Source: a virus
Direction: 5' to 3' (one strand)
DNA length: 35,995 bases
IMG/VR virus record: IMGVR_UViG_3300010883_027110
Location: 1-35,995 of that record
The notes under the pieces are model-generated. The model was not told the DNA's origin. It worked only from the letters and a program-made list of their open reading frames with translations, and searched no databases. Positions 1 to 20,500 of the stretch are shown here, piece after piece. Every line of letters begins with the position of its first letter. Within the stretch, counting starts at the first letter, position 1. A program made the translations under genes and the position numbers.

Positions 1-3000
1 TATAATGACAGATGACAGGTTAGATGGCTCAGCCTCCCTTGTCTTTAGTATGCTTATTTTTGAACTTGGAATATCATAGCCATTATTTGTCTCCAGCGTA
101 TTACTCGTTAGGCTTATAACCTTATTACACCTTCTGGAAGACAAACCAAAGGTCTCTATGTAAACCTCCAAATTGGAGTACTCTACAGTTTCTACGTAAG
201 TACACGTATCCTGGTCTAAACCTACGAAGTCTATAACGCCCGTATCTATATTAGCCCTATACTCCGGGTTTATCAGGTTGTCGCCCTTTAGAACATCTAC
301 GAAACCATTGATGGTGGAGTATAAAACACCTCCCATTTCATGACTTTTCTGCATCGAATCCTTTCTGAATACTGCAAATTTAGAATTCTTTATATCCGTC
401 ATAATTCTTGTCTCGACACCAGATGATGGCGCAAAACAAAATGATATTTTTGAATCAGAGGAGTTAAAAGTAACAACCTTCATTGAGTCTGAATCTAAAA
501 ACGATACATAGTTGCCATGAACACCGCCTATTATATAGGATTTGCCAACCATGTCTGTCGCTATAGACGCAGACTTTATAATAATAGACCTTCCGAGCAT
601 GGACTCTGTAAATTTCGCACCATCGGAATAGAAGAAGCTAGAGTTTGCAGAAATAGTTCCATCATCAAAATTTCTATAAAATGAAACTTTACTTATTTCA
701 AAATTATGCAAAACCTCCCTGCCTATGTCAGAAAACCTATTGTTTATCAAAACCGGAGCACGGCCTCCAAATTTAAATATGTTCGGAACCTCTAGACCGT
801 CAATAAACAGATGCATTGAATCTTTTTCATCTAAAGAATTAAGTTTCCAACTTGCGGCTATATGGTGCACCTCTTTTGGTTTAAAGCTCTTTATGTTTGT
901 CGCTATATTATATAACTCATATATGTTACTGCTTGAATCTTCATGTATTCTGAAATTTAAAAATCCCTTGCCATCTTTGAATATAGAGATTCTGTTTTTA
1001 AAATCAGAGTCACCCATATCAATAATATATCTCAACTTGTCTGAAGACATAAGTATCTCATTCAAAACAGGCCTAATGGTGAAGTTTTCAAAATACCCAT
1101 CTGCATAACCGTCAATTGGAACGGAGAGTATTCTAGGCCCCAGTTCACCAAGTGGCCCAGGCAACCTTATATATTTAGAACCGGGCAATTTCACTGGAAA
1201 GACATCAGAAGTGTACGCATATCCATCATATCCGTCATATCCGTCATATCCATCTATATCTTCTATGGCAAATTTACACGCTATGTTCTCTCCGAAGGAG
1301 AAATCTACCTTGTGGTCATCACTAATAAATATATCATCATCAACATTTATTTTCGAGTCATAATCCCTTTTAGATGCAAACAATATATGATCTATGTCAA
1401 TAACCGTTGAACTATTTTCAGTATGAAATAAATCATAATCAATCAATGCGCTATCAAATAAATGTATTGATATAAACGGCTCTGTTTCGTTTATATTTTC
1501 GAATTCAGGCTTTTCAAAGTCTGAGTATGGCAGCCTGCTTATAATTTCATTATCAACATATATAGTTATAATATTTATATCTGGATCTAATAATATTTTA
1601 TAATCATGAAATTTAGAATTATTCCAATCAAACGAGGATATATCTAATATTGAATTAGACTCTCCATCTATAACCAAAACTATACCCTCACCTGAATTTG
1701 AAACTGATAGTGATAATTTTATATTTAATAAATTATTGCAAAAATGCAATGGTACAACTCCGGTCATGTTTCCAGATACAGCTCCAGAAAATGCGCCAGT
1801 GGAGCCGAAAGCTATATCTTTGGAAAGATCAGCCACTCTGAGCGATATTGAAAAATCCGTACTTCCGTTTAGACATGGATTTCCAGTTCGAACAAGTACG
1901 CCAGACTTTCCGTCATCAAGGCTTTTGATTATCTTATTTTGGCTAGCCTGGATTCTCATTCTGTATATTCCGCCATCTGCTTTAGCCCCTATCGGCCCAA
2001 CAACCTTCCATGGGGCGCTCATCGACTCTGCACCAATGCCAAGTACATTCACAAGGCTCGATTGACTATCATGTATACAATTCCACCCATCCTTATGCAG
2101 ATCAAGGCTTCCATTATATCGAAACTTTCTTTCGCATGTTTTATCTTCATAGCAATCTTCACCATCATCTACCTTCATAGACCTAATTACTGATGAAAAC
2201 TCCCCGTCAGTCTCTATTGTTCCAGACACCTTGTATGAAACATATACATTTTCATATTTTGTTTTAAAGTCATAAGTGTCTAATGGGTTGTCAGCCCTCA
2301 ACGCTATATAGTTCTTACCAAGAAATGACAAGATAGAGGCCCAGTAGCCGCCATATAGAGAATTAAAGATTGATCGATCGCCGCCATAATGGCCTCGAAC
2401 TATCATGTCGCCAGAGAGCCTGTCTTGAAAATATGTTCTGAATATCTCAGAAGAGTTGGTTATTATATATTCTTCATCAAGCGTGCTCGTGATTAGCAAT
2501 ATTGGCAACTTTGGGCTAGACGCTCTGGATAGGTAGTTCAAATCGATCCCTATCTTGTCAAAGTATTCTTCAAGATCCCCTACTGATGACCACACCTTAT
2601 CCCTGTTCTTAGCTTTTTCTTTGCCCCCAAATGTTGGAGATATTAGGATTAATCCAGAAATATCCTTTTTTAACCACTTTGATGCCGCATATGTTGAAAT
2701 AACCGCGCCATCAGAAAGCCCGGCTATACTTATCGACCCCTCATCAATATCGCTCTTCGTCTGAAGATATATAAATGCATTTTTAACTATCCCATCTGCC
2801 GCAGCCCACTTCTCTGTTCCGCGCTCACCAGCAAGTTTTGTTATTATCGGAATTAGTGCAGCGTGGCCCGAGTTTACAATAGATTTTGCAAAATTATCTA
2901 AGTCATATCCGAGCTTTTTGGAATCATCATATCCAACATTGCTGATCATCTCACTATGGTTATATATTATAGCAGGCATTTTGATTCCAGGGTTTGGATG

Positions 3001-6000
3001 ACAATATATTGCCTCAAAAAATTCACCAGAATCTGTTTTTATAGAAATAAGCTTTGGAACGAATGGCGTTTCTGTTTCATCTATTTCTATTTTAATCTGT
3101 TTGTTTTTTGCACCATAGCTTCCATCTGGAAGCTTGGATGGTAGCGAAAGATATTTCTTAGAATATAAAGAATACGCCTCTGGGTCCCTCAGCTCAACAT
3201 CCTTCTTGGTACACAGATTCCAGGTGCCAATCTGCGTGACCTTTACAATATCCGACTCTTCGACTCTAACTACGGCGCCAACCGTCTCGATAATTTCAGT
3301 GGAGACAACCTTGTCCTTCAGCGTATTTATATATAAATCAGACATTATATCGATAATATCTCTATATCCGTATATCGCTTCATTTTCTAGGTCTATTCCT
3401 GAGTTATAACTATAATTTTCCCTTGGGTATACATCCAACACAGTCCCGTCTTCATCATATACGTAGGTTGGAGACTCTTCATCATATATTCTGCCCGCCC
3501 CAAAATACTCTTCTGACATTTCGCCAAGGACTACCCTGAACTTTAGAGTATTGTACAAGCCCCCATATGTGCCCTTAACCTTCCACAAAAACCTAAGCTT
3601 TGTTGGTGTAGTAAGATTTATAATAACCGGCTCTGATATTCCTAACTCGTCAGTCTGAACCTGAGCGTAGGCATACCCACTGCCTATAGCCTGCTTGTTC
3701 GTTCCAACGTCTGCAGATCCATTATTTCCGGTATATAGTAAAGAATCAGATTCATCATAAATGTAAAAATCATACTTACCGTTCGTTCCATACAAAGTTG
3801 GAAAGAATATATCAAAGGTTATCTTTCCAGAAAGTTTTGTAGTGGTAGTCCACTCTCTAAAATAACCATTTTTTGGCTCATAATTTATTGGCGTCCAAGC
3901 GACCTTTGAATAATGGAACTGCCCCTCTGTGTTGGAATCTTTGAACACACCCTCGTTCTCTGACTGCCTTAGTGTTTCCGTTACGAGGTTATATATCAAG
4001 ATACCATCTGCAATTTTCGAAGCCTCATTGATCTTCATTCTAAATATAGACGGGTCTACCGGAGAGCCCCATGCATATGCCCTTTCTTGCTCTATAAAGT
4101 TAACATTACCCATATTTTTTCTAACCATGTTCAGGACTTTTGTGTAATGAGCTATAGAATGATCCAGTGGATCTCCAGTTAGATTCTTTGGGTATACAAG
4201 TGAAATTGAGCTTAAATGGTCAGAAACTGACTTAATGGAAGAGCTTCTGGCTATCATTTTTGTTGACGGTATATAACCTTCTGCGAAGTTCTTATCATTA
4301 ACAAAAAATGACGGTTCGGATAGCTCTTCTGTTATCGATTCCCCGTCATTAGAAAGCTCTATATCCCAAAACCATAGAGTCTTTGGTACATTTGTACTTG
4401 CGGGATCTTCGCTATCGTTCCATAGCCTAAACTCTATCTCATTAAGTCCGTCTACAATATATGAAGATAAATCACCTGATTCGAAAAATGATACTATATT
4501 GTCCCTATTGAGATTTTCAGAGAATACCAAATTTCCATTAATATAACAATCAGTAGAGACCCTTTCCGCATTCAATTTCAGTATTTCTACAATTTCTGCA
4601 GCCTCGGCCTCAGTGTAATCCGGATCACCCTTATACTTATCCTCATACTCTTGTGGCTTAAAATTAGATTGGAATGAAAACGATAGCGTTAAAGAGCCTA
4701 TGTCATCAGGCTTGGCAAACCTATAGTATGCCGAGGCCCCCTCTGGGCCCAGAGGAGTGCCATAGTCTGATGCTCCAGGTCGCAATCCTACATATATTCC
4801 CTCAACATCTGTTTTCTGCCCCAACTCTATTCCATCCTTGGAGAATAGAGCTCCAAATTTTTGATAATACATTGTCGGGATAAATTCAAAATTGGGATTT
4901 ATATCTCTTGCGGCGTTAACTATGCTTAATATCTGGCTTGGGATATATCCAAACGCATAATCACCCGGCTCGGAGAGGCCGTCGCCAACAGAATTACTTG
5001 TATCATCATGTAGCAAGCCTATAAGGTGATCGAATCCCATCCCACCCTCTTCAACCGGCAGGGTTAGTCTCGCAAGCTCTCTCATCCTGAGAATCATGCT
5101 GTCTGTGGATTCAGACGGTGTTGAGTTTTTGTGCATACCCCACCGATCTGGATATATAATATATGTCCCATCTCCATTGTCCTTGGGCTCACTAAAGTGG
5201 TGCTTTTCACCAGAACCCGCATATATCTTTATCCCTGTCCCCTTTGTCTCATTGAGAATCTTTATAAATTCATCCCACGCAGATTCTGACTCGTACCCAC
5301 CAGAAATATCATATTCTGCTGTAAAATTTCCATAGTCCAGAGGATGTACGGCGCTTCCAAATCTAACGCTTCCCCCATTATAATGTGCATCTCCTAAAGC
5401 CTCTATGCTTGGGCTAACACCCTCTGCACATGGATGGCAATACAAATTGCACCCGGTATCTTTTAATATCTGCACAACCGCAGCCTGGTCTTCCCTGTAC
5501 TTCCCTACGGAAACCGTCCCATCGAATGCCGTCCATGCATACGAACCAAATAGCTTAGTAGGCCTTCCGGACGTTTCAACGCTTTCCACCGTAGTAGTCG
5601 TAGTTTCCTCTGGACTAACGACAATCTCTCTCCTATCGGTACCCACAACCGTCTCTACTGTTCCGCTTATTTTTGTACACCTGGACTCTTGAGCACCTAG
5701 TTTTGAAGTTATGGCCCAATACACATAGTCGAGCATCTCGCTATTTGCGCTTCCAGAGATTCCAGATACCGGCCTATACCACGGGTCCACAGCCCCTCCT
5801 CTTCCGGTCTTCGCATCACTCATCAGTTTTGACGTTGCTGAATTATTATTTAAACCAAATATGTCCGGATATACTTTGAAATAACCCTCTTTCAATATAA
5901 ACTTTAGAACATCTTCAAGAGTATAGTCAAAGCCAGAGCCCTCGGTTGTCACTATTCCATTTTCTTTATACGATTCTATATAATCTCTAGATATTCTGTC

Positions 6001-9000
6001 TGAAAAGACAACATGTATTGAGTCATATCCGGAATTGCTTAATAATTTCTTATTTATTTTTTTAAAATCATCTTTATCTTTTAATATAATAATAAAAGAC
6101 GAGTTACTTACCATTTTTTGCACAATATCTATATTATCAGGAATCCCGTCTAGGTTGTTATCCAAATACATAGATAATATGTTTGAAACATGCTCAATAT
6201 CCTTCAACGCTACGGCTCCAAAGGAATTGCCTAATGGCGATGCTCCGGAAGATTCCACCGTCGAGAAGACGTGAACTCCGAATATATTCTGATATGCATT
6301 AAACCCCGCCGCCCTAAACACGGATAGGTACTCTGGGATTGAAGATACACCCTTCGCCTGATTGACATACATATAATAGTCTTCGTCATAAGTTCTTTTT
6401 TCAACAAAGCCACTGGGAATGAGTTTTGGAGACACGACCACTTGACTGGGAATCTTTATTACATCATCTACATTAGTTCTCATAAACCATTGGCCACCCT
6501 CTACGCCATCTTCATAAAATGGTGACTCGCACATATCATCGTAACCTATGAATACGCCCTTCGCCTTATTTATATTAAAGGGAACGCCCGCTGGAGACTT
6601 CGGATAATCCTCTCTGTTTAGCGAAAAACTAACTGAGCCACTTGCTAGTCCAGACGCAGATGGGTTTATAGCATTGCTACCTATGTATATATCGTTTTGG
6701 TCAAATCTTGATGTTATCTTATAGTCTAATTTTTTTACATCAAAAGAGGATATTCCGCCTCGGCCCAGAGAGCCTAATGATACTGAGTTTGATAGCTGTG
6801 TTGGATTTTCTATATTTATTTCAGAAAATAATTTTTCTGAGTCTATTAAGTTTGAATAATAAAAATTAAGCTTACTTTTATTAATTCCAACTACCAATTT
6901 ATTTTTTTCTATATCCTTCTTTATAGAGATTGCCGTCCGGAGTGACCAATCTACTACATTTTTAACCTTGTTTCCAAATCTAACCGATGAAGAGTCGTCT
7001 TCAGGGTTCATCACTATTTCTATATTTTTATACAAAAAAGTAATTGCCTCACTTGGTAATTCTTTTATAAAAATGTTAGACGTGTCATATTCATTCAATT
7101 CTTCATTATATGTATAGGAAACGTTATTTAGCTTTCTCTTGACATAAACAGAAGTAGCCGAAGGGGGTATATTCTTATACATAATATTCCCGCCTGATAC
7201 TTCAAACGCTATAACTTCAAATATATTATCATTTGTATCAATAACACTAAACACACTTGGGTGATCTGTAATTATGTTATTATATAGAAGGAAGTTATCA
7301 AAATATATCGGGCTGGATAACTCTATCTTTATCACCATGTCATTATAAGATTCAAGAATATCTATGCTATCTGTAATGCTACACTTGCACATTCTCGTCT
7401 GATGAGGCCTTTGAAAGCTCTCAAAGTCATCATGATCGAGGCTTTCTTCAAGAATATTATATTGTATCGCGTCACCATTTGTATATTCAATCAACGTGCT
7501 GTAATAAAATGGAATAAATATTGATTTATTACAATCATCAGCAAGAATAAAGGCTGGGCTCAAGTCGTTGATATAAGCGCCATCCTCGTAATCCTTATCT
7601 ATGCCATATACAAAATCAGAGCCAAGCTCTAAAAATCTTCCATATATATATTCTTCAGAATACTCTGGGATATCTGCCTCGTCACGATTCGAAATATTTC
7701 TCAAATGTGACCAGTTCTTTGCGGATAATTCAACAGAGCAATCGATTGCCATACTGAACAAACTGGTTACATTCAAGGTTTCTTCTTTTTTGGTCAATAT
7801 GAAACTACTTGGGATTATCACTTGAGTGTCATCAATTAATGATGATTTATAATTATTTATTCTAGCAGAATCTCCTGAGTGATCAACTGATCCGGAAGAC
7901 TCAGATGATGATATAACATTAAAGTTATTTTTTTGATTAAACAGATCTTCTCCACCTTTAAAGGAAAAGACCTTATATCCAAAATTTTCAATATTAAAAG
8001 TAAGTGTTGCATCATTATTTATTCCAGCCCAGTCAGGCCTAACCCAGGATTCAAAAGTGCCTTCTTGCAGATTGATATTGGAGTTTCTAGGTATGTAAAC
8101 TGCATTTTCATCAGATATATACAACCCATCATCAAATCTTCCGTCATAGAAATTCAAGTCTCCTGAGTAATTTACAGAGCCTGGACTCAAATGGTCTCTT
8201 CCTAAAATCCAGTTTCCAAATACCATTTCATCTATTGTTGGCTCAATAGACGTAAATGAGCTTACAAGTTTTTCAAATGCCGGAATCGTGGGCCCCCTGG
8301 CAAACGCCTGGAGCGAGCCCTCAAGTGCGCTCCTATAAAGCTCTCTATCTATAGTCAATGGAAATGATTCAAAGAATGGAATTTTTGTCAATGCTCCAAA
8401 ATTCCTTCTCAGTGCGCTCCTTAGGGCTCCATATTTATATGTAACAAAGTAATCCTCTCCTTCGTCAATCGCACTACCTATGCTCCAATCTATAGAGTTA
8501 TCACCATATTCATATGATATAAACAACTCATCTTTAATATTATTATAATCAAAATATAATTTGCCAGCCCTATAGTCTACAGACAGTGGTGTTCCTATTT
8601 CTGGAACAGATTCTTTTATATACTTTATCCTAACTATATCTCCCGGACTTATGTAGTCAAGGTCCTCCATTTCTACCGATATTGAGCTTTTAGATATACT
8701 TATTGTAGGCTTGGTTATTATGTCTATAGTATCATTATCTGATAGGGTTGGCGAAGTCTTAAGAATGTTTCCTTCGGCGGGGGTCTCTATAGTTATAGTT
8801 GAGTTTGTAATGCTTGAGTCAACTATCTTAAACCTGTTTGAGTCGCTATCAAGCACAAAGTTTTTATCCAAGTATATATTTTTAATAGAAAAATCTGGAT
8901 GCAAATACACCAACATCCTTGAGTCGGATAGGACTGATGTCTGCATTACAGAAACATCTTTGTTTTTCTCTAAATTTAACTTTTCATCAAAAATTATAGA

Positions 9001-11898
9001 GCTGTTTTTCATTAGCGTTACATCATAAAAGGAATCTATGTTGGAATCTTTTATTTTAAATACTAACTTGCCGCCCCTCTTTTTTATAATTTTATCCTTA
9101 TGGGTTTTTAAGTCAATAACATTGCTAGCGAAGCTGCTTTTCGTAGGATCGTATATATTTTTTCCGCCATTATCATATAATGATAATAAGTCTTTTGTAG
9201 CTGACTCCAAAATTCTTAAATTCTTATTCTCGCTATCTAAACTTCTTCCGAACAAGTCATCTATTTTGTTTATCGAATTTATAGATGATATAACAGTAGG
9301 AACAACAACTGTATAGTCCGGAAGAACCTCACATGATTGTTTATACTCCCCAATTAAATTTGGATATTCATCTCCAGCACTAAACATATATGTTGTATTT
9401 TCCAGATCATTTATTGATATATCACTGACACCAAATGTAATATTTTCATATTTTTTTGTAGCATACTCTATAGAGTCAGAAGATGAGATCTTTTTCACAA
9501 TAGACCCAACTCCTATTATATTTTTGTTATTTACAATATGTGAATTACACGAGTAAGAAGCGCTCCCCAAATCTGTTGTATCATTACTCTCAACAGCTAC
9601 GTAAACAACTCCATTTTTATAATCTATTGAATAATCACCAGACCTCCTAAGCCTAGTTAGGTTTGAATATAAATCCTCATTCAATGATGATTGTATTACG
9701 GATGCTATTCCACCATGCTCTGTTGCCGCAAAACCATATGTTGATAAGATGGGTTTAAAAAACTTCTCCTCTTCAAAGATATCTTCTTTATCAAAAGTAA
9801 TTGACGAATTAAGTGATGACCCAACCGCATCCATGCTATTATTCAATATGGATTTATTATCAAGATTAATTGTGTAACACCTCATCCCTATTATAATCTT
9901 CGTGCCCACGCTTGGAGCGGTATAAGATGATATAATTCCCAATGAGTTTATAATTCCGTTCGAATCTTCATCTCCAAAGAATTTAATGCTTACGTCCTCT
10001 ACTCCAACTGGTGTAGAGCTATCGGTAACAACTCTGATATAATAATCTTCAGAATTCTTGTTTATAAATTCAGACGGAATTCCCGGCTCAAACATAATGC
10101 TATTGTTTGAGGAATTTGATGTTATCTCAGATGAAAACGCTGGGGATACAAATTCTCCTACGACCGATAGGTTTTCGTTTATAACCTTCTTAAAGTTTGC
10201 ATTTTCGAAATAATTGTTAACTACCTCTGGAGACCTATTACCAGAGAAGAAAACCTCTGTATCTGTATGATACAGCGGAGAGTAAACCTCTCCAGTTGTC
10301 TGGTTAAATATTCTGAAAACATCAGTTATCGGAGTATTTTTTGGCTTTATGCTAAAAGACGTAATTATATTATTATCTACTGGTTCGTTGATAGACTCAA
10401 CGTGTGATAAAACTTTATAATCCTGGCCCTCTGCATATACCTTGTCATACTTAAACCCTATACTTGCCGCCTCTCCAGCCAAATATCTTCTATCATTTAC
10501 AACAAAATCATTATTATCTATGCTATAGTCCAAATCCTTTACGAAGCTGTGTCTATATGAGTATGATGCTATGTAATTGTTATCCCCAGTTCCCAGCTTT
10601 TCATCATCAGCACCAACGACAAAAACCTCACCTGTTTTATAATCTACAGAGTACTCTCCTGGCTCACTCGGAAGTTTTGATATATCAAATTTTAACTCAA
10701 CTATAAACTCATCTGGAGATATTTTGTTATTTTCACTTTCATAAAAAGACACACCACCTAAGTCGTATACGTCATTTGAATCATTAACTATTGGCGCATT
10801 ATCTAAAAAGAAATTAGATATATTAGAAGGAATAGACTCAGAGGCCTGAGCCTTTATTCTATATACATCAACCGTATCCTCTATAATACACTTTCCAAGA
10901 TCTTTATAAACATATGATGCGGTTATCTTGTCCCCAACCTTAGGCCTATATATATCAGAAAACTCTGATAACAGAATCTGATTACTATCTAGCTCCGAAT
11001 ATGAATAAGAGTGTAGCGGATCGTGTCTATTGCTCAATATTGCGTATTTAAACCTCTCTATATCATATACGTTTCCAGCAACTCCATCACAGTCCTCAGA
11101 GTCTTCAGCTCTAACGAGCTTAAGTGACAGCAACTTTAATATGTTCTTATTTTTGAAACTAATCAAATATCCTTTAAATCCGTTATCTTCTGAGAATTCA
11201 GATATTTCTTCATCCTGTACAATAACCCTCCTTAGGGATACCGGATGAGAGGGGGTGGTCTGCTCCCTTGAGAAGCCAGAGTTTATTGAAAATGATATAA
11301 CTTCCTTTACAGACGCGGTGGCGGTCTCACTACTCGAAACCCTATCTATAAAATATGCGCCCTCGTTTGAAAGCCTATCTCTTGGAGATGACGTTCTAAC
11401 TCTCCTTTCGTCCAAAATATTTACTGATATATAGTTATCGCTCAATGCCTGGCCTATAGAGTTTTGAGCTTTGAATATTTCATTTGCGTGAGCAGATAAT
11501 ATCTTCTTCACGATAGAGTTTTTCTCTATATCAAAAATCTTTGGGACTAGGGAGTAAATTCTGTCTCTTATCGGATTTATAGAGTCTACCCCTACAAAAA
11601 ATAATTGACGTATGGACTCGCTATTTAGAAGTCTTATCGATCTGTCACTTTTGAACGTGCTATCATCAGTATCTAATAATTTTAATAAATAGTAATTTCC
11701 AGATATCTGAGGCTTTGTCTTTATAACTACAACACTATTTGATATAGCTATTCCAGTTACCTCCAAATCTTTGGAGTTTCCGCTTAAAGACTCTACGTTG
11801 AAATTATCTTTTGATAGAGTAGATGATACATTTTCACTAAAAGTTACCTTTAACTCCGTAGTTGATGGTATTGAAAACGCTATTGGCTTAAATATCAT
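1..11898 (-). CDS. Giant multidomain tail fibre / receptor-binding and depolymerase protein (partial, C-terminus off left edge)
   Basis: The frame starting at ATG 11898 has no stop down to base 1, giving at least 3966 residues; the true C-terminus is outside the window. The start follows GAGGA five bases upstream, overlapping the TAG of the gp6/J-like gene. Order seen: an Ig-like N-terminus (residues 1-80, with VTFSENV); a helical part around residues 100-190; beta modules each carrying a YxxDYxxG motif near residues 419, 759 and 1108; a conserved-looking linker around 1150-1225; LamG-like (about 1225-1470); an uncharacterised domain (about 1850-2080); a beta/alpha barrel (about 2112-2385); beta-sandwiches; an alpha/beta-hydrolase (about 2940-3195); a ConA-like part (about 3270-3510); four DGY repeats; and a LamG-like part (about 3570-3770). 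Its position after gp25 and gp6/J is that of gpI/gp7/tail-fibre genes, so I infer a baseplate-attached host-contact protein that binds and perhaps degrades surface polymer. The reading frame is certain; the role is inference. Confidence 0.85.
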   Translation of the reverse strand, partial: MIFKPIAFSIPSTTELKVTFSENVSSTLSKDNFNVESLSGNSKDLEVTGIAISNSVVVIKTKPQISGNYYLLKLLDTDDSTFKSDRSIRLLNSESIRQLFFVGVDSINPIRDRIYSLVPKIFDIEKNSIVKKILSAHANEIFKAQNSIGQALSDNYISVNILDERRVRTSSPRDRLSNEGAYFIDRVSSSETATASVKEVISFSINSGFSREQTTPSHPVSLRRVIVQDEEISEFSEDNGFKGYLISFKNKNILKLLSLKLVRAEDSEDCDGVAGNVYDIERFKYAILSNRHDPLHSYSYSELDSNQILLSEFSDIYRPKVGDKITASYVYKDLGKCIIEDTVDVYRIKAQASESIPSNISNFFLDNAPIVNDSNDVYDLGGVSFYESENNKISPDEFIVELKFDISKLPSEPGEYSVDYKTGEVFVVGADDEKLGTGDNNYIASYSYRHSFVKDLDYSIDNNDFVVNDRRYLAGEAASIGFKYDKVYAEGQDYKVLSHVESINEPVDNNIITSFSIKPKNTPITDVFRIFNQTTGEVYSPLYHTDTEVFFSGNRSPEVVNNYFENANFKKVINENLSVVGEFVSPAFSSEITSNSSNNSIMFEPGIPSEFINKNSEDYYIRVVTDSSTPVGVEDVSIKFFGDEDSNGIINSLGIISSYTAPSVGTKIIIGMRCYTINLDNKSILNNSMDAVGSSLNSSITFDKEDIFEEEKFFKPILSTYGFAATEHGGIASVIQSSLNEDLYSNLTRLRRSGDYSIDYKNGVVYVAVESNDTTDLGSASYSCNSHIVNNKNIIGVGSIVKKISSSDSIEYATKKYENITFGVSDISINDLENTTYMFSAGDEYPNLIGEYKQSCEVLPDYTVVVPTVISSINSINKIDDLFGRSLDSENKNLRILESATKDLLSLYDNGGKNIYDPTKSSFASNVIDLKTHKDKIIKKRGGKLVFKIKDSNIDSFYDVTLMKNSSIIFDEKLNLEKNKDVSVMQTSVLSDSRMLVYLHPDFSIKNIYLDKNFVLDSDSNRFKIVDSSITNSTITIETPAEGNILKTSPTLSDNDTIDIITKPTISISKSSISVEMEDLDYISPGDIVRIKYIKESVPEIGTPLSVDYRAGKLYFDYNNIKDELFISYEYGDNSIDWSIGSAIDEGEDYFVTYKYGALRSALRRNFGALTKIPFFESFPLTIDRELYRSALEGSLQAFARGPTIPAFEKLVSSFTSIEPTIDEMVFGNWILGRDHLSPGSVNYSGDLNFYDGRFDDGLYISDENAVYIPRNSNINLQEGTFESWVRPDWAGINNDATLTFNIENFGYKVFSFKGGEDLFNQKNNFNVISSSESSGSVDHSGDSARINNYKSSLIDDTQVIIPSSFILTKKEETLNVTSLFSMAIDCSVELSAKNWSHLRNISNRDEADIPEYSEEYIYGRFLELGSDFVYGIDKDYEDGAYINDLSPAFILADDCNKSIFIPFYYSTLIEYTNGDAIQYNILEESLDHDDFESFQRPHQTRMCKCSITDSIDILESYNDMVIKIELSSPIYFDNFLLYNNIITDHPSVFSVIDTNDNIFEVIAFEVSGGNIMYKNIPPSATSVYVKRKLNNVSYTYNEELNEYDTSNIFIKELPSEAITFLYKNIEIVMNPEDDSSSVRFGNKVKNVVDWSLRTAISIKKDIEKNKLVVGINKSKLNFYYSNLIDSEKLFSEINIENPTQLSNSVSLGSLGRGGISSFDVKKLDYKITSRFDQNDIYIGSNAINPSASGLASGSVSFSLNREDYPKSPAGVPFNINKAKGVFIGYDDMCESPFYEDGVEGGQWFMRTNVDDVIKIPSQVVVSPKLIPSGFVEKRTYDEDYYMYVNQAKGVSSIPEYLSVFRAAGFNAYQNIFGVHVFSTVESSGASPLGNSFGAVALKDIEHVSNILSMYLDNNLDGIPDNIDIVQKMVSNSSFIIILKDKDDFKKINKKLLSNSGYDSIHVVFSDRISRDYIESYKENGIVTTEGSGFDYTLEDVLKFILKEGYFKVYPDIFGLNNNSATSKLMSDAKTGRGGAVDPWYRPVSGISGSANSEMLDYVYWAITSKLGAQESRCTKISGTVETVVGTDRREIVVSPEETTTTTVESVETSGRPTKLFGSYAWTAFDGTVSVGKYREDQAAVVQILKDTGCNLYCHPCAEGVSPSIEALGDAHYNGGSVRFGSAVHPLDYGNFTAEYDISGGYESESAWDEFIKILNETKGTGIKIYAGSGEKHHFSEPKDNGDGTYIIYPDRWGMHKNSTPSESTDSMILRMRELARLTLPVEEGGMGFDHLIGLLHDDTSNSVGDGLSEPGDYAFGYIPSQILSIVNAARDINPNFEFIPTMYYQKFGALFSKDGIELGQKTDVEGIYVGLRPGASDYGTPLGPEGASAYYRFAKPDDIGSLTLSFSFQSNFKPQEYEDKYKGDPDYTEAEAAEIVEILKLNAERVSTDCYINGNLVFSENLNRDNIVSFFESGDLSSYIVDGLNEIEFRLWNDSEDPASTNVPKTLWFWDIELSNDGESITEELSEPSFFVNDKNFAEGYIPSTKMIARSSSIKSVSDHLSSISLVYPKNLTGDPLDHSIAHYTKVLNMVRKNMGNVNFIEQERAYAWGSPVDPSIFRMKINEASKIADGILIYNLVTETLRQSENEGVFKDSNTEGQFHYSKVAWTPINYEPKNGYFREWTTTTKLSGKITFDIFFPTLYGTNGKYDFYIYDESDSLLYTGNNGSADVGTNKQAIGSGYAYAQVQTDELGISEPVIINLTTPTKLRFLWKVKGTYGGLYNTLKFRVVLGEMSEEYFGAGRIYDEESPTYVYDEDGTVLDVYPRENYSYNSGIDLENEAIYGYRDIIDIMSDLYINTLKDKVVSTEIIETVGAVVRVEESDIVKVTQIGTWNLCTKKDVELRDPEAYSLYSKKYLSLPSKLPDGSYGAKNKQIKIEIDETETPFVPKLISIKTDSGEFFEAIYCHPNPGIKMPAIIYNHSEMISNVGYDDSKKLGYDLDNFAKSIVNSGHAALIPIITKLAGERGTEKWAAADGIVKNAFIYLQTKSDIDEGSISIAGLSDGAVISTYAASKWLKKDISGLILISPTFGGKEKAKNRDKVWSSVGDLEEYFDKIGIDLNYLSRASSPKLPILLITSTLDEEYIITNSSEIFRTYFQDRLSGDMIVRGHYGGDRSIFNSLYGGYWASILSFLGKNYIALRADNPLDTYDFKTKYENVYVSYKVSGTIETDGEFSSVIRSMKVDDGEDCYEDKTCERKFRYNGSLDLHKDGWNCIHDSQSSLVNVLGIGAESMSAPWKVVGPIGAKADGGIYRMRIQASQNKIIKSLDDGKSGVLVRTGNPCLNGSTDFSISLRVADLSKDIAFGSTGAFSGAVSGNMTGVVPLHFCNNLLNIKLSLSVSNSGEGIVLVIDGESNSILDISSFDWNNSKFHDYKILLDPDINIITIYVDNEIISRLPYSDFEKPEFENINETEPFISIHLFDSALIDYDLFHTENSSTVIDIDHILFASKRDYDSKINVDDDIFISDDHKVDFSFGENIACKFAIEDIDGYDGYDGYDGYAYTSDVFPVKLPGSKYIRLPGPLGELGPRILSVPIDGYADGYFENFTIRPVLNEILMSSDKLRYIIDMGDSDFKNRISIFKDGKGFLNFRIHEDSSSNIYELYNIATNIKSFKPKEVHHIAASWKLNSLDEKDSMHLFIDGLEVPNIFKFGGRAPVLINNRFSDIGREVLHNFEISKVSFYRNFDDGTISANSSFFYSDGAKFTESMLGRSIIIKSASIATDMVGKSYIIGGVHGNYVSFLDSDSMKVVTFNSSDSKISFCFAPSSGVETRIMTDIKNSKFAVFRKDSMQKSHEMGGVLYSTINGFVDVLKGDNLINPEYRANIDTGVIDFVGLDQDTCTYVETVEYSNLEVYIETFGLSSRRCNKVISLTSNTLETNNGYDIPSSKISILKTREAEPSNLSSVII
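600..1185 (-). other. LamG-like domain 3 of the giant protein
   Basis: Residues about 3570-3770. FTIRPVLNEILM, RISIFKDGKGFLNFRI, EVHHIAASWKLNSL and SMHLFIDGLEVPNI are the canonical laminin-G strands ('x-H-x-A-x-x-W' then 'L-x-x-D-G'). This is the third ConA/LamG-type unit of the same protein. Confidence 0.6.
1219..1254 (-). repeat. Four tandem 9-nt repeats encoding DGY x4
   Basis: Four in-frame units differ only at a synonymous Asp codon base (GAT or GAC) and encode Asp-Gly-Tyr four times at residues 3549-3560. They lie between concanavalin-like domains 2 and 3. The likely role is a flexible or aromatic linker; the copy number may vary by slippage. Confidence 0.9.
1360..2090 (-). other. Concanavalin-like domain 2 of the giant protein
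   Basis: Residues about 3270-3510. The segment contains APWKVVGP, FSISLRVADL, KLSLSVSNSGEGIVLVIDG and FHDYKILLDPDINIITIYVD, a strand series typical of ConA-like jelly rolls, in which 'H-x-Y-x-I-x-x-D' precedes 'I-x-V-D-x'. It follows the hydrolase directly, so it may hold glycan substrate close to it. Confidence 0.5.
2300..3080 (-). other. Alpha/beta-hydrolase (dienelactone-hydrolase/esterase-like) domain of the giant protein
   Basis: Residues about 2940-3195. The fold order is visible: strand KLISIKTDSGEFFEAIY, strand MPAIIYNHSEM (oxyanion-hole loop), helix-strand SGHAALIPI, helix KWAAADGIVKNAFIYLQ, strand SISIAGLSDGA with the G-x-S-x-G nucleophile elbow, strand ISGLILISPTF, strand LPILLITSTLDEEY, and GHYGGDRSIF. 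The candidate triad is Ser3062 (codon 2713-2715), Asp3141 (2476-2478) and His3170 (2389-2391), with spacing and order normal for the superfamily. In a tail fibre this suggests removal of acyl groups from a surface glycan or cleavage of another ester. That role is inference; the fold and triad are well supported. Confidence 0.75.
4330..4745 (-). other. Galactose-binding-like beta-sandwich after the barrel
   Basis: Residues about 2385-2523. Strand ASAYYRFAKP opens a region that later has CYINGNLVFSE, DLSSYIVDGLNEIEFRLW and LWFWDIELS. The 'y-NG-x-V ... dls-y-i-xG-x-N-x-I' pattern is typical of jelly-roll carbohydrate-binding or accessory domains appended to glycosidases. It supports reading the neighbouring barrel as carbohydrate-active. 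A second beta-sandwich-like stretch follows at about 3490-3835. Confidence 0.45.
4745..5565 (-). other. Beta/alpha-barrel (glycoside-hydrolase-like) domain of the giant protein
   Basis: Residues about 2112-2385. Alternating strands and helices can be followed: strand KLFGSYAW, helix GKYREDQAAVVQILKDTG, strand CNLYCHP, helix WDEFIKILNET, strand GIKIYAG, helix MILRMRELARL, strand FDHLIGLLHDD, helix SQILSIVNAARDINP, strand FEFIPTMYY, strand DVEGIYVGLRPG. This is the rhythm of TIM-barrel glycosidase-like families such as DUF4434. The His2297-Asp2298-Asp2299 triplet at the end of a strand is the best candidate for active-site acids. Substrate and activity cannot be told from the sequence. Confidence 0.5.
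5660..6345 (-). other. Uncharacterised extracellular-type domain of the giant protein, with Ca-loop-like motif
   Basis: Residues about 1850-2080. It has IPEYLSVFRAAGFNAYQN, then DNNLDGIPDN at residues 1913-1922, which matches a DxDxDG-type calcium loop. FDYTLEDVLKFILKEGY and YVYWAITSKLGAQ follow. From memory this layout resembles an uncharacterised secreted-protein family that carries a 'TLEEILH' motif. Here the position of the family's His is Lys, so if that family is a metalloenzyme this copy may be inactive. The family match is a recollection, not a search result. Confidence 0.35.
7490..8226 (-). other. LamG/concanavalin-like domain 1 of the giant protein
   Basis: Residues about 1225-1470. 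The segment DGRFDDGLYI followed by GTFESWVRPDW is the usual start of a concanavalin A/laminin-G jelly roll: a coloured-in ligand face, then the conserved 'E-x-W-x-R-P-x-W' strand. Such folds bind glycans. It directly follows a helical linker containing GALRSALRRNFG and GPTIPAFEKLV, which may join the fibre to the baseplate-proximal part. Confidence 0.6.
8500..10700 (-). repeat. Repeated beta module with YxxDYxxG motif, about 345-residue spacing
   Basis: Within the giant protein three similar motifs occur: EYSVDYKTGEVFV (Asp419), DYSIDYKNGVVYV (Asp759) and PLSVDYRAGKLYF (Asp1108). Spacings are 340 and 349 residues. The first and third are followed by an aromatic-rich strand (ASYSYR, ISYEYG), and the second by ASYSC. 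This looks like a beta-rich module repeated along the shaft. Only the motif is clearly conserved by eye; the rest of each module has diverged. Confidence 0.5.
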
Positions 11899-11902
11899 AT
11901 CT

Positions 11903-11907
11903 TCCTC
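11903..11907 (-). promoter_or_regulatory. Shine-Dalgarno GAGGA of the giant fibre gene
   Basis: GAGGA lies four to five bases before ATG 11898 and shares its first base with the TAG stop of the gp6/J-like gene. It fixes the start of the giant gene and suggests that the two are translated in tandem. Confidence 0.75.
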
Positions 11908-14900
11908 TATGTTAGCCTAAAATTTTCTCTTGTAACAGATTCAAATAATATTGTTCCTGCAGATATGGTCTGATTGTCTAACGATTTTATAAAACTCTTT
12001 TTACCAGACTCTCCGCTAACATTAAATTTCGATATATTTATCGAATCAACTCCATTAACAGAGGTTGCTGCGGAAACTATATCTGAGTAATCAACAGTGG
12101 AACCAAGCCTGGATGTGTTTAGTAAATTTGTGATCTGACTAGATACGTTCTCCACAATAGTAGCAGAATTATTGATAGAATCTTCGTTAATTAATATTTG
12201 ACCGTCAACGTCTATTAGAATCTCTGACGCTTCTTTCGCCAATACATCTGCAGTTATGGACCTAACCTGTTCAAGTGATGCCGTTACGTTTGGCAAAATA
12301 ATATTATTATTATACCTTACAGTAATCCGCTCGCCTTCTTTTGGAGCTGAGAAGTTATAGCTAGCGTTATAGGCGCTTCCAGATAATGGCTGATTGGAGA
12401 TGAGTGCAGATATAGAACCGATTAAAACACCGCTAGAATTTCTGAATCCAGATGGTATCGAAACTCTATCTATCCTTGAGAACATTTTTTCAGTAAATAT
12501 TGACTCGTTTCTTCTAAAAAATATTTCTTCAAAATCATTCTCATTGGATATTAACACAGATACCCTTAGCTTTGTTCCTCCGGTTATATCAATACCTGAG
12601 TTTTTTGTTGTATCTTTTATTACAAAAGATCCGGCATCCAAAAGCGGATCAGATAAAGAACTCCTTGTGTCAAAGTTGTTTTTAGAAATAGTGTATCCCA
12701 GTATATCAAGATGCCCTTCTTCGCTTCCAAATACATCTAGCTTAGCTACGGAATCCACTCTTGCGATTGATATATTTGACGGAAGCTCTCCTAACCCGAA
12801 AAACTCTTTAATCTCAGATCCTATATCAAACGTCAAGTCTCCAGAGTATCCTGAAGACGAGCCAGTTACGGATATTGCAGTATCAACATCAAAAACAGCT
12901 CTCGTAAAAGTTGTTCCAAGAACTTTAACCTTTCCAGACTTAACCACACCTGTTGTGGTTAATTTTATTTTAGATGGACAAAACCTCATGATTCCACTAA
13001 CAGCCCCAGAAACATTAAAGTTGTACAATAAAGGCTGATAAGAGTTGTCTATTTGAGATAGCCCAGAGCTCAAAAGGGAGTTTGTGGTGTTATTTCCACG
13101 TATGGGAAATCCTGAAAAATCTGTTTCAGGAAAAACATTGGAAATATCCGCTATATAGTCTATATGCAAATTATCATCTAAATCTGATATCTCTTCCACT
13201 AGATCTAGTAATCCATTTTCAGAAAGTATATCTTCTGATGGAAGAGTGACTAAGTTTTCAGAAAATGAAGCGTCACTTTGTTCTATAAAAAATAATTCAT
13301 TTTTATTATAATGAACATAAACTTTCTCCCCGGAGGCAACCGGACTGTCAGTTGGAAGGTATATTGTCCTAGAGGAAAATGTCCCATCACTCTTATTAGT
13401 ATTATAAGCCTCCAGCCCAGACTCTGTTCTTATGGACACTATATTCTTTACTTCATTCATTTCTGAGTTCAATATAATTGCTACAAATGTGGACTCCTCT
13501 ACCTCCACCACCTCTGTATCTAGCTCCTCAACTACCTTTGAATATAAAGAAGATATTCTCGATATAGGGTGCTGAGCAGATATCTGATACTCAAGATCAT
13601 CAGCCGTCCTCGCGAGCAGAGCCTCTTCTCCGGATATTCCAGATGAAACACCCCAATCTATTGAGTCAGTTACGTATGGATCCTTATATATTGAGTTAGA
13701 TTCTGCGCCATTATACTCAATATACTTATCAAAATATCTCCTCCACAGGTAGTCTACCGATAGTATATCCGCAGAAGTAGGTAGGTTCTTTCCAGATATT
13801 ACAACCTGAGCATCTTCGTTAAGGCCAGACGTGCTATCTATATTTTGGGACTCAACCACATAAATCTCACCAGTTGTTCTGTTGGTAACCCTAGAGACCG
13901 TCACAACTGGCCCATGATTTAGGTTCACAACCCCTCTGTCTGATATGTTGATTTTAGAATTTTCTCCACTAATTACAAGATCCTGATATACCTCATCCAC
14001 TCCCTGTATATCTGAAAATCCAAGAGAATCTGCGGAATTGAAAGACCCCTTTGTTAGGGAATCTGCAATTACATTTTTTTTACTTAATATCCAATGTAGC
14101 TTATCAAAACAGAACGGACTTCCTCCGGTTTCCGGATTATCATCCTTCAGCAGTTCATAATTTCCAGAAGTAGACCCGTCAGAGTTCGTTACCTTTGATG
14201 AGAATATTCCAGACTCTGTTCCTACGACAGATACCACAGAATTAACTGGTTGGGCTGGTATGTTTCCACTTTTAAAAGTAGATACCCTCCTCTCTTCTGA
14301 TGTTAAGTTTTTATATATAGAGCTATCTTGTATTCCAGATAGTCCGAGCACGACATCATTTCTATCATCTTCTGCAGTCCCAGAGCCGGAAAGATCCGTA
14401 TATATGAAGGACTCTATATTTTCTTTTAACCTGGTCCCAAGAACATACATATCTACTTTTCCACCAGTTCCCGAACTCAATATTCTGAATGAGCCGTCAT
14501 TTATCTCTATCGTCTCTGTGCCATCCCTGAGCATTAATGTGCTTCCGGGTTCTGCAACTAGGACATCTAAAACTCCATTCACGGCTAATGCTGCATTTCT
14601 ATAACCAGCGGCAGTCCCCGTATTAGAGCCACTAAACACTGCTAAAATTCTAGCCCTAAATGATAAATCACTCTCACTATTTACCCCCCCACTAAGAGAG
14701 GACAGGTTTATAACCTTTAGCGAGGAACCAAGGCTGTGGCTAACTATTTGCAAAGAACTTACGTTTCCAGACTGCCCAGCCCTCGTGGCTTCAACCGGAA
14801 CCTCTAAGGAGAAAGAATCATTTATTCCTGCCGTATTTAAAGCGCTCCTAAGCCTTGTTGCGTTTGCCGCATAAAGATTTTTTTCTACGGAAGAAATAAC

Positions 14901-15269
14901 ATAATTACCTATAGTTTTATATGCTAGCCCATTCCTTGCTGTAACTATTGTTCCAGATGGAATTGGAACATCTGAAATTACATCATTCGTGGTAAAGACG
15001 ACGACCCCTGTTGATGGAGTTCCGCTATTTCTCGATATTCCAAAGTTCCTGGCAAGCCTGTCGAGGTCCCTGCCAGATGCTGTTCCAAATGATTGTTTTT
15101 CACTTATCAGCGACAAGGCCTTGTGCAGGCGCTCTATCTGGTCTGCTTGTATGTCGATAAATAAATCTCTAGCGACAGTTCCGGGCTTTGTATCTAAATT
15201 CGGCTGTGTTAGCCTTAATCTTTCAATCATAGAAGATACTATTTCACTAAAAGATCTGAATATAGCCAT
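11907..15269 (-). CDS. Baseplate wedge protein, baseplate J / T4 gp6-like
   Basis: A 1120-residue protein assembled into the baseplate wedge ring that joins hub to fibres. The N-terminus (residues 1-290) shows the J-family layout: FRSFSEIVSSMIERL, KPGTVARDLFIDIQADQIERL, a Gly-Arg-Asp-Leu-Asp-Arg-Leu-Ala turn, PIPSGTIVTARNGLAYKT and SESDLSFRARILAVF. The C-terminal part (about 955-1090, from ITVRYNNNIILPNV to VNGVDSINISKF) is also J-like. Between them lies a beta-rich insert of about 650 residues, making the protein much larger than usual J proteins (about 300-500) or T4 gp6 (660). ATG 15269 has GGAG six bases upstream. It directly follows the gp25-like gene, the normal W-J order. Confidence 0.85.
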   Translation of the reverse strand: MAIFRSFSEIVSSMIERLRLTQPNLDTKPGTVARDLFIDIQADQIERLHKALSLISEKQSFGTASGRDLDRLARNFGISRNSGTPSTGVVVFTTNDVISDVPIPSGTIVTARNGLAYKTIGNYVISSVEKNLYAANATRLRSALNTAGINDSFSLEVPVEATRAGQSGNVSSLQIVSHSLGSSLKVINLSSLSGGVNSESDLSFRARILAVFSGSNTGTAAGYRNAALAVNGVLDVLVAEPGSTLMLRDGTETIEINDGSFRILSSGTGGKVDMYVLGTRLKENIESFIYTDLSGSGTAEDDRNDVVLGLSGIQDSSIYKNLTSEERRVSTFKSGNIPAQPVNSVVSVVGTESGIFSSKVTNSDGSTSGNYELLKDDNPETGGSPFCFDKLHWILSKKNVIADSLTKGSFNSADSLGFSDIQGVDEVYQDLVISGENSKINISDRGVVNLNHGPVVTVSRVTNRTTGEIYVVESQNIDSTSGLNEDAQVVISGKNLPTSADILSVDYLWRRYFDKYIEYNGAESNSIYKDPYVTDSIDWGVSSGISGEEALLARTADDLEYQISAQHPISRISSLYSKVVEELDTEVVEVEESTFVAIILNSEMNEVKNIVSIRTESGLEAYNTNKSDGTFSSRTIYLPTDSPVASGEKVYVHYNKNELFFIEQSDASFSENLVTLPSEDILSENGLLDLVEEISDLDDNLHIDYIADISNVFPETDFSGFPIRGNNTTNSLLSSGLSQIDNSYQPLLYNFNVSGAVSGIMRFCPSKIKLTTTGVVKSGKVKVLGTTFTRAVFDVDTAISVTGSSSGYSGDLTFDIGSEIKEFFGLGELPSNISIARVDSVAKLDVFGSEEGHLDILGYTISKNNFDTRSSLSDPLLDAGSFVIKDTTKNSGIDITGGTKLRVSVLISNENDFEEIFFRRNESIFTEKMFSRIDRVSIPSGFRNSSGVLIGSISALISNQPLSGSAYNASYNFSAPKEGERITVRYNNNIILPNVTASLEQVRSITADVLAKEASEILIDVDGQILINEDSINNSATIVENVSSQITNLLNTSRLGSTVDYSDIVSAATSVNGVDSINISKFNVSGESGKKSFIKSLDNQTISAGTILFESVTRENFRLT

Positions 15270-15277
15270 AATATCTC

Positions 15278-15709
15278 CTAAACTATTCTTATAGTTATTA
15301 CTTCACTAATTGTACTTAATTTTTGAGTTAAAACAGATATAAAAACATTATACATTCTCGGATCGGCCCCATCTCTCTCTACCGAAACTGAAGTAACTTC
15401 CAATATCTTTTCACCTGATGTTAAAAACTGCTTTTTTAATTGAACTTTTTGCATAGATATTAAGTTAGAAAGAGCTCTCCTGACCGAAGCTTCTAAATCA
15501 GAGTCTATAATGCTTCTGTCTGTAACTCCACCTATTTCAAGAGCCCCAACTCTGCTTCCATAAAACTTATGGAATTTATTCTCTCCAAGGTCCGTAAGGA
15601 GTATTTTTACAATATCTTGCCTTAACTTTGTATTATTATTAACTAACTTCATGGATCCATCAGCATCTATGCCCAAATCACCATTTCTAATTCTTAAATC
15701 AAAAGACAT
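15278..15709 (-). CDS. Baseplate wedge protein, gp25 / gpW-like
   Basis: A 143-residue protein, the usual length for this family. It opens with FDLRIRNGDLGIDADGSM, then KLRQDIVKILLTDLGENKF and YGSRVGALEIGG; the helical 'DI-x-x-x-L-x-x-x-x-GE' and the G-S-R-V-G turn are the family signature. These proteins form the inner wedge and contact the sheath initiator ring. AGGA lies seven bases before ATG 15709. Its TAG stop overlaps the ribosome-binding site of the J-like gene. A terminator-like hairpin sits in the 100 nt upstream, so this gene may open a new transcription unit. Confidence 0.85.
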   Translation of the reverse strand: MSFDLRIRNGDLGIDADGSMKLVNNNTKLRQDIVKILLTDLGENKFHKFYGSRVGALEIGGVTDRSIIDSDLEASVRRALSNLISMQKVQLKKQFLTSGEKILEVTSVSVERDGADPRMYNVFISVLTQKLSTISEVITIRIV

Positions 15710-17569: not shown

Positions 17570-20500
17570 TTAATTCTCCAGCTTAGTTCCAAAGGTCTGT
17601 GGATTAGACTTGGCAAGGAGAGCATCATCATCCTCCTTGCTTGACATGTCCGAAAGGAGCATCTCATCTCCCTTTCCGGTATCGACAAAGAACACACTCA
17701 GAACCCTATCTACCCTAGACAAGCCTCCGAGCGGTGTCTCGACCTCTGACATTATATCTGCGTCTACACCATCTTCTATGCAATCAACTGCGGATTCTGC
17801 AGATGAGAGTTCTTCCACTATATCTTCAAATCCAGAGAACGCTAACGCCTGAATTGTCTTTCCACAAACAGATGCCTTTATCTTTATCTCACCAATTGCG
17901 TCTGAAGTTATTCTAGCGTAAACGCTATTCCCTTTGGCAAGATATCTTGCAACCGTTCCACCATCATCTTCTTCATAATCTATGAACCTAGCAGAGCCTG
18001 TTCCGTCTGATAATATTTCCATCTCAACCTTTTCTTCGAATTTCAAACCTGGCGCTACATTCCCATAACACTCTCTTGGTGTTAATTCGATAGTTGCAAA
18101 CTCTCCTATTTCTATGATCGCACTGTCACCGTCCCCAGAGGCGTACTCTCTTGCTCCAATATATCTTGGGCCATATTCTTCTGGCGCATCACCAACAACT
18201 CCTGGCCCAGCTATTATTTCTGCCGGAGTTATCATCGTTGAGAACCCAGCAACAGGGGTTATGTCTTCATCCTCAAGAACCTTAAATGATGTTGATAGCT
18301 CATTAACAACAAAAACACAAGTTTTGTTCGCTATATCCTCTATGCACAATTGAAGCTCCTCTCCTGCAGCAACAATGTCCCCTATAGGTATTAGATCGGG
18401 AAGCAATTTGGTTTCCGGATAGGCCGCAATGGAGGCCCTAACCTTCGAAGTAGCGGCCTTGATTGTTATAGGATACTTCTCTACACAGTCCCTAGCTTCC
18501 TCAATCAGTTTTGTTACAGCAGATGTATCTTCTTCGGAAGGTATAGCTGACTGATTAATCGTAGCATTTGTGCACATCTGCTGAATCTCTTCCTCCGCCT
18601 GTCTTACGTCTACAAAATATAGCTTTGGAAAATCTAATAGAGGAATATTATCAATGGCCTTTCCTGGAATGACCGAAATCCCATCGCCATCAACAACCTT
18701 TATGAAGTCCTCAACAACCTTCTCTGTTACAAGCGCGATATGAGCGTTGTTATTAAGATTTGGTTTTTTTGGAATTCCACCTTCATCTGCTGGCCAGCCT
18801 TCTGCAGTGACTAATGGCTTGAAATAAGAATTTCCGTCATCGCATACTTTGAATTGTGCTGAAGATAAGTCACTGATTATCTCATCCGGAGAGCTGCCGC
18901 CGTCAAACAATGCTGCAAGCCCAGAGGCTGTCGCACCCGTCCAGAAGCCACCTCTCTTCTCTTTGTGTGTAAACAAGTATTCAAGACCAACTTCGTTAAC
19001 CATTACGATGCTCTCTCTTGATGTAGCATGTTTTGGAGCAGCAGGATGATTTTGCATGACAGCTTTTATCTCAAGAATGACATTATTTTGTTCAGTATCA
19101 GGGTCTTCTCCGAATACAATGCCGTCTTCTTTTATATAATAAAGATTAAACTGATCATCCATTATAGCCATTCTAGGAATGCCATCAAAAGTTTTGTACT
19201 CCGTTCTGGTTTCTATAAGATCCAACTCTCCCGTGTCTGGGTTTACTTCATATATTGGAAAATCTATAGGAAGTATTAGCGGCTTAACGGATGCGGTATC
19301 TCCATTGAAATCCAGGAAGTCATCGTGACCATCTATAGGACTAACAAACTTCCCCTTGCCCGAGGATCTAATGCTTATATCATCTCCACTTTTATTAAGA
19401 AGTGTTATTGGAGAATCTAATGTCTGATCCGGATCAAAAGCTTTTCTGAAAAACCACCAGTCAATATTCGTTCTTCCCTTTTGATTGAACTTAAATGTTA
19501 CAGCTGCAGGATTTGACTTTTTCCATGACCCACCCTTCTTTGACTTAGAATACGAAACCTCGAAGGTTCCGTGGTTCTTCTTCCCTAGCTTGGCAGAATC
19601 AGAACCTGGATCGTTATATACAGAGTTGATTCTCAAGGTATCTTCCTCTTCATCTCCGGAGCCAATCTTCACCATGTCCAAAGCATCTATAAATAGTCCA
19701 ACATCGCTTAGAAGATCACCCTCCTCTCTTTCGTATAGGTCATCTGCCTCAACAACATCGTCTTCAGAGAAATCTTTCCTTATTAGTGTCGTTCCCAAGT
19801 TATCCTTAACGTCTATAAGGTCCGTACCACCACTATCTGCATCCGGATATGGCTCATTATCAACCTTTATAAACGCTAACGGCTCAACGCTTATAGATTG
19901 TGCAACAGGAAGCGCGATATCAGGAGTTATGCTTCCCCCTGGGGCCAGCTTTCCTCCTAAAATTCCGGCCAATATTGTTCCATCGACTCCGCATTCCGCA
20001 TCTCCAGTTCCAGGCGTTATTTCGCATGGGAATCTAAAGAACATTTGAAGCAGCTGAAGAAATATTGCCAAAATTGTTATAATAGGCTCAAGAACCTGGA
20101 GATCAGCTTCAACTGAAAATAGATACTCGGACAAAACCTCTTCTAGCGCTTTTATTGCCGGCCAGTTTTTGTACTTTATGGCCCTATCAATTGCTTTTAT
20201 AATCTCGTTTATTGCAGTTATAATTCCAAGTATTTTTTGGATAAGACACTCAAGAAGGTCCAGTAAGTGCAGGAGTAGTCTTAAGAACATTACCGGCACG
20301 GATAGCTGTGGTAATAATAATATCAAATCAAATAAACACTGAAAAAGCCTTATTATTGCTTTTGCCAGCTTAAATGGATTTAATAGCGCACATATAACAT
20401 CTATAATACAGAAGATAACCTGAATCGGGATTAGAAGAACCTGAAAACCTCTGAGGTGTGCTTGAAGCTCTGCTGTCAAATGGAAGGATATGTCACAAAA

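Follow-up and report, generated by a model that had tools for sequence, protein, structure and literature searches.

An alpha/beta-hydrolase-like domain within a composite insert in one loop of a giant phage tail protein

The IMG/VR virus record IMGVR_UViG_3300010883_027110 (35,995 bases, referred to here in its entirety as the window) encodes a giant tail or adsorption protein, P0001, in which the original prediction had placed an alpha/beta-hydrolase with an intact Ser-Asp-His triad. Such a domain inside such a protein raises the question of whether it truly belongs to this fold, whether it could be a working enzyme, and how it came to lie there. The frame of P0001 (1..11898) was confirmed to code for at least 3966 residues, as had been claimed; after these 3966 residues no stop codon was encountered up to the window end, where the frame is open. 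This frame and all other window features located below lie on the minus strand.

Comparison with relatives by BLAST showed that residues 1–1823 and 3215–3966 of P0001 are conserved, while the middle is missing from nearly all relatives reaching that far. Relatives were collected with two alignments. The first (A1, the first 665 residues and one relative) retrieved 39 viral loci, and the second (A3, the last 359 residues and 18 relatives) retrieved the best 80 of 113 loci; contigs reach 406 kilobases (kb) in the A1 set and 481 kb in the A3 set, the longest of each being distant members. The insert, as delimited by BLAST and by flank profiles, covers residues ~1824–3212 (2263..6429), amounting to about 1390 residues, and 1393 residues separate the two flank matches in the window. 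When a coverage criterion was applied to 38 relatives, some of them truncated, no other stretch of at least 60 residues was found to be private to few members, the sole other private stretch being the corresponding place in loci L022, L028, L029 and L030.

Both flanks were present in 40 other contigs. A linker of 9–26 residues occupies the site in 35 of them, and the remaining five hold 257–267 residues matching a domain designated here as domain A. Merging the left flanks at 90% identity left 30 clusters, of which three were filled and 27 empty; this site count omits rows with one flank, among them L022 (start of domain A, then contig end) and the distant, shorter members. In the window, the order within the insert is domain A, split by an 813-residue cassette, and then directly the hydrolase. 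The only variable loop of this conserved giant tail protein harbors three foreign pieces, and this placement is more unusual than the hydrolase itself. The original prediction had overlooked that the hydrolase belongs to such an insert.

The hydrolase-like domain was delimited by Pfam, by a profile of its relatives and by alignments to residues ~2933–3205 (2284..3102). Its membership in the alpha/beta-hydrolase fold family is well supported by sequence comparison. All four Pfam families matching the domain at E ≤ 10 are alpha/beta-hydrolases, namely Abhydrolase_3 (E 5.7e-4), Hydrolase_4 (7.4e-3), Abhydrolase_2 (0.2) and BAAT_C (0.27). No SGNH/GDSL family was among the four. The original prediction had named a dienelactone-hydrolase/esterase fold; the alpha/beta-hydrolase part of this claim was retained, and the more specific part is weaker than claimed, since the dienelactone hydrolase family (PF01738) had no match in the window record, was absent among the domain matches up to E 10, and matched cellular relatives only (L267 and L244).

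A profile of three cellular alpha/beta-hydrolases scored the domain at 27.1 bits. The top score among 1000 shuffled versions of the domain was 6.0 bits (451 of the 1000 reported), and the best of the 280-residue pieces of P0001 outside the domain reached -0.8 bits (24 of 53 pieces reported). The three profile sequences had been found or picked by their similarity to the domain, so the 27.1-bit test is not independent, while the Pfam matches do not depend on that choice. The nearest bacterial relatives, L267, L244 and L230, share 21–22% identity with the window domain, and the nucleophile elbow and central strands align; L267 and L244 match the alpha/beta-hydrolase Pfam families.

In the PDB, a profile of the domain together with three relatives matched 132 sequences at E ≤ 0.1. 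Among the 60 matches listed, the labels were of the hydrolase, esterase, lipase or cutinase type, with the exceptions of two 'uncharacterized' entries and MGS-M1. Three of the four rows of this profile are relatives, so that the result speaks for the relatives more than for the window; the single-sequence search with the domain returned only two unrelated endonucleases at E 0.07.

The three proposed triad residues were located as predicted, with all their codons inside 2300–3080. Ser3062 (2713..2715) is the nucleophile in GLSDG, the counterpart of the nucleophile elbow that this fold has after strand 5, Asp3141 (2476..2478) is the acid following LLITSTL, and His3170 (2389..2391), the proposed base, is the sole histidine between residues 3141 and 3215. 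The GLSDG motif begins at residue 3060 and occurs once in P0001. The general pattern G-x-S-x-G was found twice in the 3966 residues (GNSFG at 1890 and GLSDG at 3060) and is for this reason weak evidence when taken alone.

Alignments with 18 relatives, which were hand-chosen and include some near-duplicates, were computed in three MAFFT modes. Ser3062 fell on the catalytic nucleophile and Asp3141 on the catalytic acid of all 18 relatives in every mode, and the assignment of both residues to catalytic positions is well supported. For His3170, coincidence with the catalytic histidine was seen in one mode, there again with all 18 relatives; it is probably the catalytic histidine of the domain. The triad announced as intact was in this way upheld for Ser and Asp and is plausible for His. 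The proposed acid and base lie where the fold usually has them, behind strands 7 and 8 respectively, according to a survey covering 40 of its families (PMC7034887).

Several observations weigh against an intact hydrolase. Every Pfam match of the domain stays under its cut-off, and even the best of them, Abhydrolase_3 (PF07859), scored 20.1 bits against a curated cut-off of 25. The C-terminal third of the domain was barely matched by the three-relative profile (second piece, -3.1 bits), and hmmalign to this profile left residues after ~3093 unaligned. His3170 was off register in two of the three MAFFT modes, and in a four-sequence alignment (A4) both Asp3141 and His3170 were off register. An AlphaFold2 model of the domain built without relatives reached a predicted local distance difference test score (pLDDT) of 38.4. 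The supporting strands, also part of the earlier claim, are backed by the alignment in the first half of the domain, and the model lends them no support.

To these points must be added that no second copy of the hydrolase was found in the viral contigs, genome contigs, phage records or plasmid records searched. None of six viral-contig stretches was confirmed as a hydrolase relative, nor any of 63 with alignment A4; the corresponding numbers were 0 of 49 for genome contigs and 0 of 17 for further genomes or records. The domain gave two phage records and one plasmid record at E 0.7. Three genome sets contained isolated weak matches, with 1 of 296, 1 of 235 and 3 of 246 genomes. When the retrieved loci were searched with the domain's profiles, L117 and L109 were conspicuous as two remote hydrolases.

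With both sides considered, we somewhat favor the reading that P0001, which most likely serves a giant phage with a contractile tail in adsorption, carries an alpha/beta-hydrolase-type cargo domain; this domain would work as a virion-borne serine carboxylesterase and attack host-surface acyl groups. The hydrolase would be displayed from the backbone loop beside the zincin-like domain A. During adsorption it would de-esterify a polymer or lipid of the host surface, O-acetyl being the most likely of the groups removed, and lectin-like parts of the backbone, together with the other inserted modules, may hold the host surface.

The presence of lectin-like modules beside the hydrolase, predicted originally as ConA-like modules, gained partial support, weaker than the original prediction implied. 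Laminin_G_3 matched seven of 19 family members (best E 4.9e-4) at region 3608–3966, which starts about 400 residues past the hydrolase. The window's own protein pieces matched neither a ConA-like family nor Laminin_G_3 in the Pfam scans.

The alternative that survives best, although we consider it unlikely, is that the hydrolase fold has been retained as a catalytically inactive binding or structural module. It gains weight from the adjoining domain A, which in the window has changed two of three near-fixed motif residues (to EDVLK) and is changed in four of five phage copies, as well as from the insecure alignment of His3170 and from the sequence YNHGGL of the three nearest relatives, which reads YNHSEM in the window. 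However, Ser and Asp are found in their motifs and the histidine in the expected loop despite strong divergence elsewhere; in a dead domain, retention of the whole triad would be unexpected.

Less probable again is an active serine hydrolase with a non-glycan substrate, either envelope lipids (lipase- or phospholipase-like) or peptides (prolyl-oligopeptidase- or S33-like), which would aid passage of the tail through the envelope. The alpha/beta-hydrolase fold serves all these reactions, the second and third Pfam matches are Hydrolase_4 (serine aminopeptidase S33) and Abhydrolase_2 (phospholipase/carboxylesterase), and a stretch of ~35 residues between strand 6 and the acid could, as read from the sequence, be a lid. 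On the other hand, many of the nearest PDB sequences, as retrieved with the profile containing the relatives, are labelled esterases, and the tail-borne esterases described in PMC13123978 and PMC8471582 act, or are proposed to act, on acetyl groups of polysaccharides. Esterase action on the host surface is for us still the preferred function.

The nested cassette within domain A spans residues 2079–2891 (approximate bounds; 3226..5664), ~813 residues bounded by the two domain A matches. Queries slightly larger than the cassette gave no convincing match in the Pfam, NCBIfam, PDB, plasmid or phage collections. None of six viral-contig stretches held a match either, and genome searches yielded 0 of 194, 2 of 246 (15–16 bits, regarded as chance matches) and 0 of 247. 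Judged by eye, it may be a TIM-barrel-like enzyme interrupted by beta-sandwich pieces. Its guanine-cytosine (GC) content at third codon positions was 0.387, compared to 0.289–0.330 in the backbone blocks.

This elevated GC value, the occurrence of the hydrolase in one contig only, and the fact that the near-identical contig IMGVR_UViG_3300009705_000030 stops before the insert speak for an assembly chimera, itself unlikely, or for a chance match. The two together deserve very little credence, as the frame is open across ~1390 inserted residues, both ends of the insert join the backbone at the loop where other phages have domain A, and hydrolase and cassette stay inside the codon-usage range of the backbone blocks.

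Domain A comprises ~260 residues. A profile of the cellular family and L028 matched the window twice, at residues 1859–2078 (5665..6324; 117 bits, model positions 42–245) for the first part and at residues 2892–2930 (3109..3225; 22.1 bits, model positions 247–285) for the last part. The short inserts of other phages and the first part of the window insert belong to one family with many cellular members. In genome contigs, 172 stretches matched domain A and 125 of them encode relatives, the best 80 of which form the cellular set; the records derive from Poribacteria, Planctomycetota, Verrucomicrobia, Flavobacteriales and others. The family is widespread in cells, and these copies (L046–L125) are mostly frames of about 280–360 residues in which EExxH, a PDGxY at the C-terminus and two cysteines are conserved.

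No Pfam family matched more than one of the 62 domain A members scanned, and at E ≤ 10 the domain A profile had no match in the PDB. For the L028 copy, a model computed from 62 rows (five phage and 57 of the 80 cellular) reached pLDDT 93. Foldseek returned nothing at E ≤ 0.001 with this model (best E 0.021), nor did the viral fold library at the same threshold. A second structural aligner placed zincin metallopeptidases at the top, the best being PPEP-2 (6fpc) with a middling score (Z 8.3, 151 residues, root-mean-square deviation 4.2). Among the 50 fold matches listed, most were metallopeptidases or toxin domains of the zincin fold, and domain A is described here as zincin-like.

In place of the HExxH metal motif of zincins, the cellular family has EExxH (E in 80, E in 77 and H in 77 of the 80 members), and the counterpart in the window is EDVLK (5902–5916), with two of the three motif residues changed. 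Of the five phage copies, L022 keeps EExxH, and L028, L127, L143 and the window are changed. The L022 copy (L022:4060-9954) lies on a contig that stops inside the insert. A search of further viral contigs for domain A gave six loci, five on contigs already in the set and one new, L277. In the latter (L277:1-864), domain A forms a gene by itself; the contig has a length of 16.6 kb and, although filed under viruses, may be cellular DNA.

In the domain A tree, the five phage copies formed one clade (support 0.89) with L022 outermost, and neither the left-flank nor the right-flank tree grouped the phages filled with domain A. The trees were midpoint-rooted with modest supports, two phage branches were long, and L022 is a fragment that is absent from the right-flank tree. 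Simple descent of domain A is disfavored, as the backbone trees fail, at modest support, to group the filled phages. Either phages have exchanged domain A at a single site or it has been lost many times, both of which would fit the pattern, and the fact that the phage copies are one clade while their backbones are not suggests reuse of one docking loop.

A tentative proposal, which may well prove wrong, is that the loop serves this lineage of very large phages as a docking site, used repeatedly for enzymes of cellular origin. A zincin-like domain would have entered once, spread to other phage lineages without changing its site, and decayed; in the phage of the window it would then have become the chassis for a module of ~810 residues and the alpha/beta-hydrolase, one virion activity replacing another. 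Two kinds of cargo support this proposal, domain A alone and domain A with cassette and hydrolase, and it rests on these two because only one copy of the hydrolase was found.

The two conserved backbone regions and the neighboring genes place the insert in its wider context. The N-terminal backbone (residues 1–1823; 6430..11898), recognized by similarity to relatives in viral contigs, shares roughly 30–47% identity with them, with a few pieces at 24–29%. The left-flank profile, of which the window is one row, matched residues 1638–1823 at E 7.3e-59. Residues 1–1232 gave no match in the named-phage collection. The C-terminal backbone (residues 3215–3966; 1..2256) was defined by BLAST and alignment with family relatives. 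As L008 carries 766 residues beyond the last aligned position, the full length of P0001 may be estimated at ~4700 residues. More distant relatives of P0001 (L041–L044) are ~2280 residues long and could be aligned in pieces only.

Directly upstream of P0001 lies a baseplate J or baseplate wedge gene (11907..15269; Baseplate_J E 3.6e-25, phrog_6 E 1.4e-47), and upstream of that a sheath initiator or gp25-like baseplate gene (15278..15709; Sheath_initiator E 7.7e-6, below the cut-off; phrog_2669, baseplate protein, E 2.1e-12). Because its gene follows baseplate J, P0001 would sit on the baseplate or fibers, and its position and neighbors make a role in adsorption, as part of a contractile tail, probable. 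Together with the Pfam families, this location sustains the description of the domain as an alpha/beta-hydrolase-like part of a giant tail protein.

The near-identical contig IMGVR_UViG_3300009705_000030 (L002) covers about the first third of P0001 at 99.96% identity over 17,430 aligned columns, with six mismatches and one gap. One frame of 2405 residues in the window (17570–24787) corresponds to two frames of 883 and 1478 residues in L002, and one of the two contigs probably holds a one-base error there. Farther along, a protein of 1694 residues (27229–32313) gave as its sole match a short one to phrog_14367 (function not assigned; E 1.5e-7).

The surfaces open to a phage for entry are decided by the enzymes on its tail. 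If the loop is a real docking site, comparison across giant phages would list natural enzyme cargoes and mark an enzyme-tolerant place in a very large tail protein. The locus also exposes a conserved cellular family, domain A, for which neither a Pfam family nor a solved relative was found by sequence. No tail protein of this make-up was found in the open-access literature, judged mostly by titles and the beginnings of abstracts. DepoScope screened 1,926 phage proteins against folds including the alpha/beta-hydrolase; the folds that one of its figure legends gives as found are four others, though four of 26 proteins missed in the benchmark are counted as alpha/beta-hydrolase (PMC11326577).

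Among known systems, domain A is closest to zincins with short catalytic domains. Its model gave its best fold match to PPEP-2, with 9% identity; HExxH is replaced by EExxH in the cellular family and is altered further in the window. The hydrolase domain resembles bacterial Abhydrolase_3 or dienelactone-hydrolase-like esterases (L267, L244, L230) in its elbow and central strands. It differs from them in its strong divergence, in a lengthened segment from strand 6 to the acid, in the spacing near the histidine, and in Pfam scores under the cut-off.

The functional counterparts are the SGNH/GDSL tail esterases. Two SGNH tail fibers of Klebsiella prophages were shown to be active as esterases (PMC13123978), gp63.1 of phage G7C is cited as a deacetylase (in PMC13123978), and the deacetylase of the Aristophanes tailspike, gp41, has 993 residues with the enzyme as its C-terminal part (PMC8471582). 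The window domain would be like them in carrying a serine esterase on a tail adsorption protein and, as proposed here, in deacetylating the host surface. It would add a likely alpha/beta-hydrolase to the SGNH-type tail-borne esterases of these sources (PMC13123978, PMC8471582). In contrast, their fold and motif are different, the window domain matching no SGNH family in Pfam, and the C-terminal enzyme of gp41 has its counterpart here in an internal insert within a protein of at least 3966 residues.

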